From NCBI GenBank assembly GCA_021129415.1, contig JAJOLH010000019.1, forward strand, positions 6,070-44,414: a stretch of DNA of 38,345 bases, given 5' to 3'. This document shows positions 2,603-36,480 of the stretch, in pieces (within the stretch, counting starts at the first letter, position 1; every line of letters begins with the position of its first letter). A program made the translations under genes and the position numbers. Under the pieces are notes generated by a model. The model made no database searches, had not been told where the DNA came from, and saw nothing but the letters and a program-made list of their open reading frames with translations. The stretch comes from Candidatus Altimarinota bacterium. Lineage in GTDB: Bacteria; Patescibacteriota; Gracilibacteria; BD1-5; UBA6164.

Positions 2603-3163
2603 ATGAAAGATCATGTACTAGAAAATCTCCATAGCGAGCTTGAGCGAACTCATGACCTAGTGGAGCACTATAAAATCAAGGGATTAAAGGAATTATGTTT
2701 TTCCCTATTATGAAAAAGTTTTAAAAAAATCCTTGCTTTGTATGCAAAAGAAAAAGAAGATGTTCTTATGGCATATGCTACCCTGCACTATGATATTGGA
2801 AAGGATATAGGCAGTGCTGCAATCCGCGCAAATGATGTGGAGCATGTAAGGCTCTGAATAAGCTCTCTTACTTATAAGATAGAATCATGTAGTAAGATTT
2901 TAGTTCAGCTTATATCACACTCACAGAGACAAGAAGAGATTCTCCATCATGAAAAGTTATTCTTCGTCCATCTCATAGAAAGTTTTAATGTGGATCTACT
3001 AAAATGGGTTGGGTCACATGAAAAGGAAATATTTTGAGAAAGAACTACTTTAGAAAATACTGAAGATAGAAACTCTATAGAAAAGTGAAAACTCCTTCTC
3101 GAAAAACAAAAACAGAAACTAGAACAACATATAGATAATCTTTCTAAAGGGCTAATGCTCTAA
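2603..3163 (+). CDS. Coiled-coil protein of unknown function, third gene of the TelA operon
   Basis: ATG at 2603 lies four bases after the previous stop, and the frame runs 186 residues to TAA at 3161-3163. It contains TGA-glycines (for example in LLGKSFKKI and RLGISSL). The protein is soluble, charged and helical, with heptad-like Leu/Ile spacing and a Lys/Glu/Gln-rich C-terminal coiled coil. I do not recognise a family. Position and spacing suggest a partner of the two upstream proteins. The last five codons fall inside a 42-nt sequence that recurs in inverted orientation at 11401-11442. Confidence 0.6.
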
Positions 3164-3190
3164 AATGTGTGCTATTTTATAGAAATAATT
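3149..3190 (+). repeat. 42-nt dispersed repeat, copy 1
   Basis: This stretch spans the last codons and stop of the preceding gene plus 27 bases downstream. The same sequence occurs on the minus strand at 11401-11442 with a single mismatch (G versus A at about 3157). It ends right before a terminator hairpin. Confidence 0.85.
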
Positions 3191-3220
3191 GGCTTATTCT
3201 AGGTGTAGAATAAGCCTTTC
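3191..3220 (+). terminator. Rho-independent terminator of the TelA-like operon
   Basis: A perfect 11-bp stem (3191-3201 with 3206-3216, arm GGCTTATTCTA) has a 4-nt loop and is followed by TTTCT. It lies 27 bases after the last stop codon of the operon. Confidence 0.7.
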
Positions 3221-4119: not shown

Positions 4120-4210
4120 GGAAGGGTGGCTGAGTGGTTGAAAGCGCACGCTTGGAAAGCGTGTGTACAGTTCTGCTGTACCGCGAGTTCGAATCTCGTC
4201 CCTTCCTCCA
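4120..4210 (+). tRNA. trnS-GGA: tRNA-Ser (anticodon GGA)
   Basis: This 91-nt class II tRNA has a 7-bp acceptor stem (GGAAGGG with CCCTTCC), a D-arm and an anticodon stem CACGC/GCGTG holding GGA at 4154-4156. It also has a long variable arm (GTACAG paired with CTGTAC), a T-arm with GTTCGAATC, and an encoded CCA at 4208-4210. GGA reads the serine codons UCU and UCC. The discriminator base at 4207 is T, whereas bacterial tRNA-Ser normally has G73. Confidence 0.95.
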
Positions 4211-4650: not shown

Positions 4651-5016
4651 ATGGATGATACAATAAAATACGCATGTCGAGATCGAAGACGAAACATGAC
4701 TTCAGCTGAAACACTTTTCTGGAACGCAACTCGTAGAAATAAAACATGATTAAAAATAGATCGACAACGGTCAGTACTTTTACAAGCAGAGGATTCCTCA
4801 GATACTCTGTCAGTCATCGCAGATTTCCTCTATATCGAAATTAGGATTATCATTGAGGTAAATCCAAAGGTTCAAAATAAGAAAGATAGTTATGAGTTAG
4901 ACGAGGTAAAGGATAAAATTCTCGAGGGAAAAGGATACAAGATATTACGATTTACTGAGCAAGAAGTGATTGAGGATATTGAGAAGGTTATAGCAAAGGT
5001 ACAAGCAGGAGTTTAA
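4651..5016 (+). CDS. DUF559 endonuclease-like protein, copy 1 (possibly inactive)
   Basis: The 121-residue protein matches the DUF559 family, a restriction-endonuclease-like (PD-(D/E)xK, Vsr-related) fold. Family marks are RRNMTSAETLFWNATRRN near residue 15, the ADFLY strand, IIIEV, and the C-terminal GYKILRFTEQEVIED. Compared with the neighbouring copy, the core IIELDG is changed to IIEVNP, and the ADF strand replaces PDF. The aspartate expected to bind metal is therefore missing and this copy may be catalytically dead. It contains one TGA-glycine (NKTGLK). Proteins of this family are small and often lie next to palindromic intergenic repeats; such a repeat starts 29 nt after this stop codon. 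Confidence 0.8.
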
Positions 5017-5044
5017 GTTTAATGGAATAAAGTCACTCAGATAC

Positions 5045-5091
5045 TAACTCTATCTTGAATTCTTTCTCTTGGAAAGAGAAAGAGGCTGCAT
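5045..5091 (+). repeat. Palindromic dispersed repeat, copy A
   Basis: This roughly 47-bp element starts AACTCTATCTTGAAT, has a TCTTTCTCT/AGAGAAAGA stem, and ends GAGGCTGCAT. It lies between the two DUF559 genes. Related copies are at 5517-5560, 5577-5622 (minus) and 36433-36480. Confidence 0.8.
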
Positions 5092-5118
5092 AATTAATTC
5101 TTGAAATTTTAAAAAAAA

Positions 5119-5496
5119 ATGAGAGTACCTGATACTATAAAAGAGGTTGCAAGAAACTTGCGTAAAAATATGACTCCTGCAGAAACAATATTTTGGAATC
5201 ATGTAAAAGCTAAGAAATTTGAATGACTTAAGTTTCAAAGGCAGAATCCAATGTATATGTTCACTGAAAATAACTGACTAGATAGATTTATAATTCCAGA
5301 CTTCATCTGTTTCGAAAAGGATTTAATTATAGAACTTGATTGAAATATACATGATATTCCAGATGTGTTGTTACTAGATAAACACAAGGAAGAATTATTA
5401 AAAAATCAGTGATTTAGAGTTATTAGGTTTAGAAATGAAGAAGTAATTCAAAATATGAATAAAGTGCTAGAGGAAATAAAAACAGAAATAAATTAA
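5119..5496 (+). CDS. DUF559 endonuclease-like protein, copy 2
   Basis: This 125-residue DUF559 protein keeps the full set of family motifs: NLRKNMTPAETIFWNHVK (about 13-30), GLKFQRQNP, the IPDFICFEKDLIIELDG core (about 57-73) followed by a His, and GFRVIRFRNEEVIQN near the C-terminus. PDF plus ELDG is what a PD-(D/E)xK nuclease centre would need, so it is plausibly active, though DUF559 function is not firmly established. Four glycines are TGA. Palindromic repeat copies sit on both sides (A upstream; B' and inverted B downstream), giving a bracketed unit that resembles a REP-type mobile module. Confidence 0.85.
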
Positions 5497-5560
5497 CTCT
5501 CCTCTGAATCTGGAATAACTCTTACCTGAATCCTTACTCTTGAGAAGAGCAATGGGCTAC
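5495..5560 (+). repeat. Palindromic dispersed repeat, diverged copy B' plus a partial copy
   Basis: 5517-5560 reads AACTCTTACCTGAATCC and continues through a CTCTTGAGAAGAG palindrome to a degraded GGGCTAC end. It is a diverged plus-strand copy of the same element. A further partial copy (AACTCTCCTCTGAATC) lies at 5495-5510 and touches the stop codon of the DUF559 gene. Confidence 0.6.
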
Positions 5561-5576
5561 CAGACCACTAGAGAAA

Positions 5577-5622
5577 ATGCAGCCTCTTTCCCTTTCCAAG
5601 GGAGAGAATTCAAGAGAGAGTT
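5577..5622 (-). repeat. Palindromic dispersed repeat, copy B (inverted)
   Basis: Read on the minus strand it starts AACTCTCTCTTGAATTC, has a CTCTCCCTT...AAGGGAAAGAG palindrome, and ends GAGGCTGCAT. It is very close to copies A and C. It faces copy A across the DUF559 gene, like an inverted end. Confidence 0.8.
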
Positions 5623-11305: not shown

Positions 11306-11400
11306 ATGGTCAAAGGATTCTGTAGTAATACTTTAGGCTATTCATGAAGGGAGAGTAAATTACAATTCGATATTTTTTTTAAAAGCCTTATGAAACACCT

Positions 11401-11442
11401 AATTATTTCTATAAAATAGCACACATTTTAGAGTATTAGCCC
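11401..11442 (-). repeat. 42-nt dispersed repeat, copy 2 (inverted)
   Basis: Read on the minus strand it equals 3149-3190 at 41 of 42 positions. Copy 1 covers the end of a real gene; here the same bases give the last codons of a short minus-strand frame. Confidence 0.85.
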
Positions 11443-36432: not shown

Positions 36433-36480
36433 AACTCTCTCCTGAATCCTCTCCCTTTAGAAAGGGAAAGAGGCTGCATT
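36433..36480 (+). repeat. Palindromic dispersed repeat, copy C
   Basis: AACTCTCTCCTGAATCC, then CTCTCCCTTT/AAAGGGAAAGAG, then GAGGCTGCATT: the same element as copies A and B near 5.0-5.6 kb, 31 kb away. It lies 10 nt upstream of the secD start without a DUF559 gene, so it may affect secD expression. Confidence 0.8.

Follow-up and report, generated by a model that had tools for sequence, protein, structure and literature searches.

A triplex-capable repeat element beside stand-alone DUF559 nuclease genes: a candidate two-part selfish DNA system in Gracilibacteria and other bacteria

The window, meaning the whole 38,345-nucleotide stretch of DNA analyzed here, belongs to a Gracilibacterium genome assembly of 674 kb in 79 contigs (G000). 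Genes of this genome are open only when TGA is read as glycine (code 25); translation table 11 was tried and rejected, as it leaves the window ORFs broken. Two tandem genes encoding DUF559 proteins lie in the first part of the window among several copies of a repeat element of approximately 47 bp, and a further copy lies far downstream. The named code-25 relatives of the DUF559 protein are Candidatus Gracilibacteria. The features are as follows:

4651-5016, + strand: DUF559 gene 1; 121 aa in code 25; diverged, with catalytic D and H replaced by N and Q
5046-5091, + strand: triplex element A, of type A (T-TGAAT-T ... A); in the gap separating genes 1 and 2
5119-5496, + strand: DUF559 gene 2; 125 aa in code 25; intact; predicted Vsr/I-Bth0305I-like nuclease fold
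5495-5510, + strand: partial element; head and linker alone; overlaps the gene 2 stop codon
5517-5563, + strand: triplex element B, of type B (C-TGAAT-C ... G); left-hand member of an inverted A/B doublet
5577-5622, - strand: triplex element C, of type A; right-hand member of the doublet; lies beyond gene 2 in the orientation opposite to that of A
36434-36480, + strand: triplex element D; in the rlmN-secD gap; not near any DUF559 gene

A preliminary description of this DNA had recognized the tandem DUF559 genes, at least three element copies plus a partial one around them, and a distant copy near secD lacking a DUF559 gene, and all of these were recovered. It had also placed elements A and B facing each other across the intact gene; this had to be corrected, as both lie on the + strand. 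Gene 2 is bracketed by the inverted pair A plus C; C is also paired with B, as an inverted doublet. Element A ends ∼30 bp ahead of the gene 2 start. Two further features of the window were recorded: a tRNA-Ser(GGA) gene at 4120-4210, directly upstream of the DUF559 region, and a pair of 51-nt inverted repeats (3149-3199 and 11392-11442) that are 90% complementary and lie 8 kb apart. The latter are unrelated to the triplex element and possibly represent a separate repeat family of this genome.

Both DUF559 ORFs match the PF04480 profile above its cutoff (103.8 and 55 bits versus 20.6). In gene 1, the D and H of the sequence E-x-D-G-x-x-H, both of which are invariant or nearly so among relatives, read N and Q, and the protein sits on a very long, fast-evolving tree branch; because of these replacements and the branch length, gene 1 is probably a decaying paralogue beside the intact gene 2. 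For the gene 2 protein, an AlphaFold2 model (pLDDT of 93.9) gave 3HRL (a putative endonuclease from N. gonorrhoeae), I-Bth0305I, AbaSI, and Vsr as top PDB matches, with TnsA lower in the ranking. The homing endonuclease 3R3P was matched by both sequence and fold. A nuclease fold had already been predicted for the DUF559 family (PMC1189080), and the window protein is a member of this family (PF04480, with YcjD and 3HRL) by sequence and fold. The stand-alone DUF559 protein is predicted to be a PD-(D/E)XK nuclease of the kind found in Vsr and homing endonucleases. In homing, a nuclease gene spreads by cutting empty sites. The window DUF559 shares its nuclease fold with Vsr and with I-Bth0305I-type homing endonucleases; unlike a homing endonuclease gene, however, it is a free-standing ORF between elements, not within an intron or intein, and it is flanked by its own repeats, which also spread without the gene.

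A covariance model was built from the four window copies A to D, which themselves score 74 to 88 bits. This model matches 25 of 60 genomes, all except one of them from the same family, and detects 16 copies in the window genome, 120 in one relative (G018), and 60 in another. With 16 copies here and as many as 120 in one relative, the ∼47-bp element is a real repeat family. Copies often occur as inverted doublets, and the ends of the element read AACTC... and GGCTGCAT.

Aligned copies follow the pattern AACTCTCTC-Y-TGAAT-Y-CTCTCCCTT-loop-AAGGGAAAG-R-GGCTRCA, in which the Y, Y, and R positions covary in 75 of 78 copies (TTA in 44 and CCG in 31). On the 5' side of the hairpin stand the head, AACTCTCTC, and Y-TGAAT-Y; the head mirrors the sequence of the pyrimidine arm. 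The element had been described as palindromic; the hairpin bears this out, but the head, mirroring the pyrimidine arm as a putative third strand, makes it more than a palindrome. On the opposite strand, the hairpin is followed by the linker and then by a third strand that would run antiparallel to the purine arm, giving predicted triads of G.G:C, A.A:T, and T.A:T. Head permutation and shuffles served as controls for this purine-motif register: across 51 distinct head/stem pairs, 94.3% of third-strand triads are canonical, compared to 70.6% (maximum of 77.3% in 500 trials) when heads are permuted among copies. We also considered the conserved head as a pyrimidine-motif third strand and rejected it, given the misfit of T or A opposite T. 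The purine motif was preferred because the complementary strand fits every common triad, and the Box C literature then agreed. Folded by themselves as single strands, the hairpins had mostly unremarkable energies.

The same purine-motif rule is followed by other hairpin types beside DUF559 genes, whose linkers comprise 3 nt (TAG or TAA), 5 nt (TGAAT), or a 12-nt mini-hairpin. All 13 determinable doublets of type I (the window family) pair a type-A with a type-B copy, with locus L189 read by eye, as the script call there was wrong. Since stems drift with compensation in all three strands while the linker and tail stay constant, the alignments suggest that shape plus linker and tail is what is recognized. 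Purine-motif triplexes do not form in RNA, according to work cited in PMC4666352; the three-strand covariation therefore argues for a role as DNA.

A comparable architecture has been described in Escherichia coli. Box C elements, renamed PIT and TM_ECO, form a purine-motif triplex in vitro, as judged by CD and NMR, and have been known since the 1990s with no function or means of spread assigned (PMC4666352). Strain MG1655 carries 23 Box C copies of types A and B, and inverted pairs are always A plus B (5/5) (PMC4666352). Holder et al. (2015) found no mobility genes near Box C/TM elements, and neither DUF559 nor ycjD appears in the text of their article (PMC4666352). In both Box C/PIT/TM and the window element, a short linker joins a hairpin to a third strand, the triads are G.G:C, A.A:T, and T.A:T, copies fall into types A and B, and inverted pairs combine one of each; both are also mostly intergenic, strain variable, and widespread in bacteria. 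They differ in that the window elements are A/T richer and carry a TGAAT/ATTCA linker and a GGCTGCAT tail, and in that relatives of the window element have mini-hairpin linkers. The TM_ECO sequence with its TTA/CCG linker was not found in the window copies, where the linker is ATTCA plus a covarying base on each side. Judged from its sequence, the element is a hairpin with a triplex-capable third strand and a relative of Box C/PIT/TM, not TM_ECO itself.

The search of contigs for DUF559 relatives used four closer sequences as the query, the whole-clade alignment being too diverse. In an even sample of Patescibacteria, a triplex-capable element lies within 250 bp of 18 of 20 stand-alone DUF559 genes, and element density is 3.9 per kb near DUF559 versus 0.021 per kb far from it, a 187-fold enrichment that is smaller over intergenic DNA alone, as the far DNA includes coding sequence. 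A mixed set of 15 loci from other Patescibacteria, Bacteroidetes, Marinimicrobiota, and Chloroflexi gave elements near DUF559 in 13 (2.9 versus 0.065 per kb; 45-fold). Palindromes beside DUF559 genes of other bacteria, which the preliminary description had suggested, are found in both samples; random placement relative to DUF559, which it had named as a possible refutation, does not agree with the element densities. Among plasmid-collection records, reading the flanks directly showed similar-looking palindromes beside DUF559 in Synechocystis, Picosynechococcus, Pseudanabaena, Deinococcus, Sphingomonas, Sinorhizobium, Azospirillum, Photobacterium, and E. coli; a formal triplex scan accepted 7 of 10 records, E. 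coli not among them. The DUF559-element pairing also occurs in Bacteroidetes, Marinimicrobiota, Cyanobacteria, Deinococcus, and Proteobacteria (Alpha- and Gammaproteobacteria), and triplex-type elements probably also lie beside E. coli ycjD. Of 5.4 million open papers searched, 14 mention DUF559, and no link of DUF559 to repeats was found among them. One locus stood out for its copy number: in Photobacterium sp. GJ3 (L247), at least 13 triplex elements occupy 3.3 kb around the DUF559 gene in an apparent array.

Within the order of the window genome, 83 DUF559 domains were compared by context. Inverted repeats flank 31 of 46 solo domains versus 2 of 37 fused ones (Fisher's exact test, 3.5e-9), a comparison in which elements common to several genomes inflate the null, so that p-values are conservative. 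In a tree of 72 DUF559 domains from this order, a single clade of 19 (support of 100/98) holds nearly all genes flanked by window-type elements. Wherever the covariance model detects an upstream copy in this clade, the element lies 58 to 66 bp before the domain start; members missed by the model carry other triplex-type hairpins, likewise inverted around the gene. Of the 14 genomes with at least 5 type-I copies, 10 have an element-flanked DUF559 gene, compared with 2 of 46. Gracilibacteria also encode proteins of 800 to 870 aa with a DUF559 domain in mid-protein (L008, L012, L013, L014, L020, L044, L059, and others); these form a separate DUF559 lineage and have no flanking elements.

Comparison of orthologous sites revealed the presence/absence polymorphism that the preliminary description had proposed looking for. 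A single copy in G004 corresponds to an empty site in G006 and G002, another copy lying in coding sequence in G004 is absent from G006, and doublets in either G004 or G006 are absent from the orthologous site of the other genome. Copy D is missing from the rlmN-secD gap of two congeners (G001 and G007). At one position in a methyltransferase gene of cyanobacterial plasmids, the site is empty in Oscillatoria, occupied by an in-frame doublet only in Pseudanabaena galeata, and occupied by a full element-DUF559-element unit in Synechocystis sp. B12, where the region is annotated as broken ORFs. No target-site duplication or exact insertion product was evident at comparable sites, whose flanks have diverged. 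Empty sites, A/B doublets, and the unit inside a methyltransferase gene indicate mobility, and we infer that DUF559 does the moving.

Two of the insertions within genes have further features. The gene interrupted on the Synechocystis sp. B12 plasmid (L244, about 1370 to 1930) is a methyltransferase of the BREX/DISARM type, and the ORFs there include pglX. In two congeners (L191 from G004 and L226 from G006), an element lies in frame inside galE and adds ∼16 residues, in the manner of Rickettsia palindromic elements.

The reading that we favor, and hold to be fairly probable, is a two-part selfish DNA system in which a stand-alone DUF559 nuclease moves a triplex-folding element. The first part would be the element of 45 to 50 bp, in which the linker and third strand would fold back to give an intrastrand purine-motif DNA triplex; it occurs singly or as an inverted doublet that joins a type-A to a type-B copy. 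The second part would be the stand-alone DUF559 gene carried between inverted element copies. Upon becoming single stranded, for example, at a replication fork, the element would fold; DUF559 would recognize this hairpin/triplex, whose linker (TGAAT) and tail (GGCTRCA) are constant, and nick or cut at its base; and host repair would copy the element, the doublet, or the whole unit to new sites. A PD-(D/E)XK nuclease is not known to join strands by itself, and movement would therefore need host repair. The association across phyla, the three-strand covariation, the A/B doublets, the insertion polymorphism, and the unit inside a gene are direct observations, from which we infer the binding and cutting of the element by DUF559, the cut site, and the repair route.

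Several observations count against DUF559 as the mobilizer. Elements at the two flanks of a gene are not always A plus B, many genomes have elements without an adjacent DUF559 gene, and in G018 most of the 120 copies differ in stem from the flanks of its own DUF559 gene. In addition, a stable triplex was not seen in vivo by Holder et al. (PMC4666352).

A different role for the same enzyme is conceivable, though we regard it as unlikely: DUF559 could be a caretaker that clears replication-stalling triplexes or hairpins, with elements gathering near the gene through self-regulation or through selection that keeps the pair together. The relationship of its fold to the repair nickase Vsr fits such a role, as does the genome instability that Holder et al. 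(2015, PMC4666352) link to triplex motifs. The upstream copy, at a short and almost constant distance from the start codon, could permit autoregulation. Against regulation of this kind, the E. coli elements have neither promoter nor terminator activity, according to Hoyne and Maher as cited in PMC4666352. A caretaker would moreover leave unexplained the inverted copies that bracket the gene, the unit inside the methyltransferase gene, and the single and doublet insertion polymorphisms.

A further alternative is that DUF559 is a passenger, captured between copies of an element moved by a RAYT-type HUH transposase or by host recombination, and spreading along with them. The preliminary description had pointed out a resemblance to REP/RAYT systems. 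REP/REPIN sequences with their RAYT (Tnp_REP) genes, and the TIRYT group (PMC3733652), likewise comprise dispersed palindromes that occur as singles and inverted doublets, and the same repeats flank a small DNA-processing gene. This much of the resemblance stands. Membership in that system does not: the window enzyme is a PD-(D/E)XK nuclease rather than an HUH/Y1 protein, the element carries a triplex motif akin to Box C, and no GTAG or CGTC tag was found at the hairpin foot. For REPs with the CGTC tag, no transposase is known (PMC3733652). The Y1_Tnp profile had no match in the window genome or in G002 to G006, G011, G018, and G029, nine genomes that hold 6 to 120 element copies each; seven are at least 90% complete with at most 5% contamination (G029 lying on the 90% line), and G000 is only 78% complete. 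Conversely, the flanks of 15 Y1_Tnp loci from the same order contained no triplex-type hairpins. Dependence of the elements on a RAYT is hence not supported. A passenger would agree with the persistence of elements in genomes without DUF559, and some of the elements have a third strand, GGGGTGAG, that is similar to the GGGGWSAS sequence in the terminal inverted repeats of some RAYT-like genes (TIRYT, PMC3733652). The presence of elements beside nearly every solo gene sampled in Patescibacteria and the nearly fixed upstream distance would not be expected of a passenger, and we rate this possibility as quite improbable. The window system is REP/RAYT-like in its logic but differs in both its enzyme and its DNA structure.

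It is scarcely credible that the elements simply serve as transcription terminators or mRNA-end hairpins and surround small genes by chance: although they are hairpins in intergenic gaps at gene ends, they lack a T-run, match no Rfam family, lie in frame inside genes (galE and the methyltransferase), and are homologous, dispersed, and polymorphic, and a covarying third strand would make no sense in a terminator, purine-motif triplexes being unable to form in RNA (as cited in PMC4666352).

For DUF559 as the mobilizer, the broader form of the proposal is that stand-alone DUF559 proteins are the mobilizing enzymes of a bacteria-wide class of elements whose recognized end is an intrastrand DNA triplex, which we consider about an even chance. 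If true, this would account for how E. coli Box C and the CCCTCTCC/GGAGAGGG-type palindromes, which are frequent in the genomes of bacteria, arose, and the elements would constitute a class of mobile DNA with no relationship to HUH/REP transposition. The new component is the partner gene: a DUF559 nuclease beside elements of the Box C kind in many phyla, which makes DUF559 a concrete and testable candidate for the spread of Box C-type elements. Should DUF559 indeed move them, a REP/RAYT-like system would have been assembled from another enzyme and another DNA structure, and non-B DNA in bacteria would gain a biological context. A role would also be predicted for a widespread domain that, in the literature searched, had neither a role nor a DNA partner.

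In E. coli itself, the DUF559 gene is ycjD, located between sapF and fabI. A ycjD-region query is at least 80% covered in only 3,364 of 5,426 E. coli genomes, whereas 5,353 of the 5,426 have places matching a Box C-like query, with a median of 18 per genome; this difference counts against DUF559 as the mobilizer. A clean empty site at ycjD was considered and rejected, since strains lacking ycjD carry the eef operon at this position (PMC12817139). Loss or replacement mediated by the elements is possible at the ycjD/eef site. In the K-12 arrangement sapF-ycjD-fabI (L255), ycjD occupies the place held by eefRABCD in other lineages (PMC12817139).
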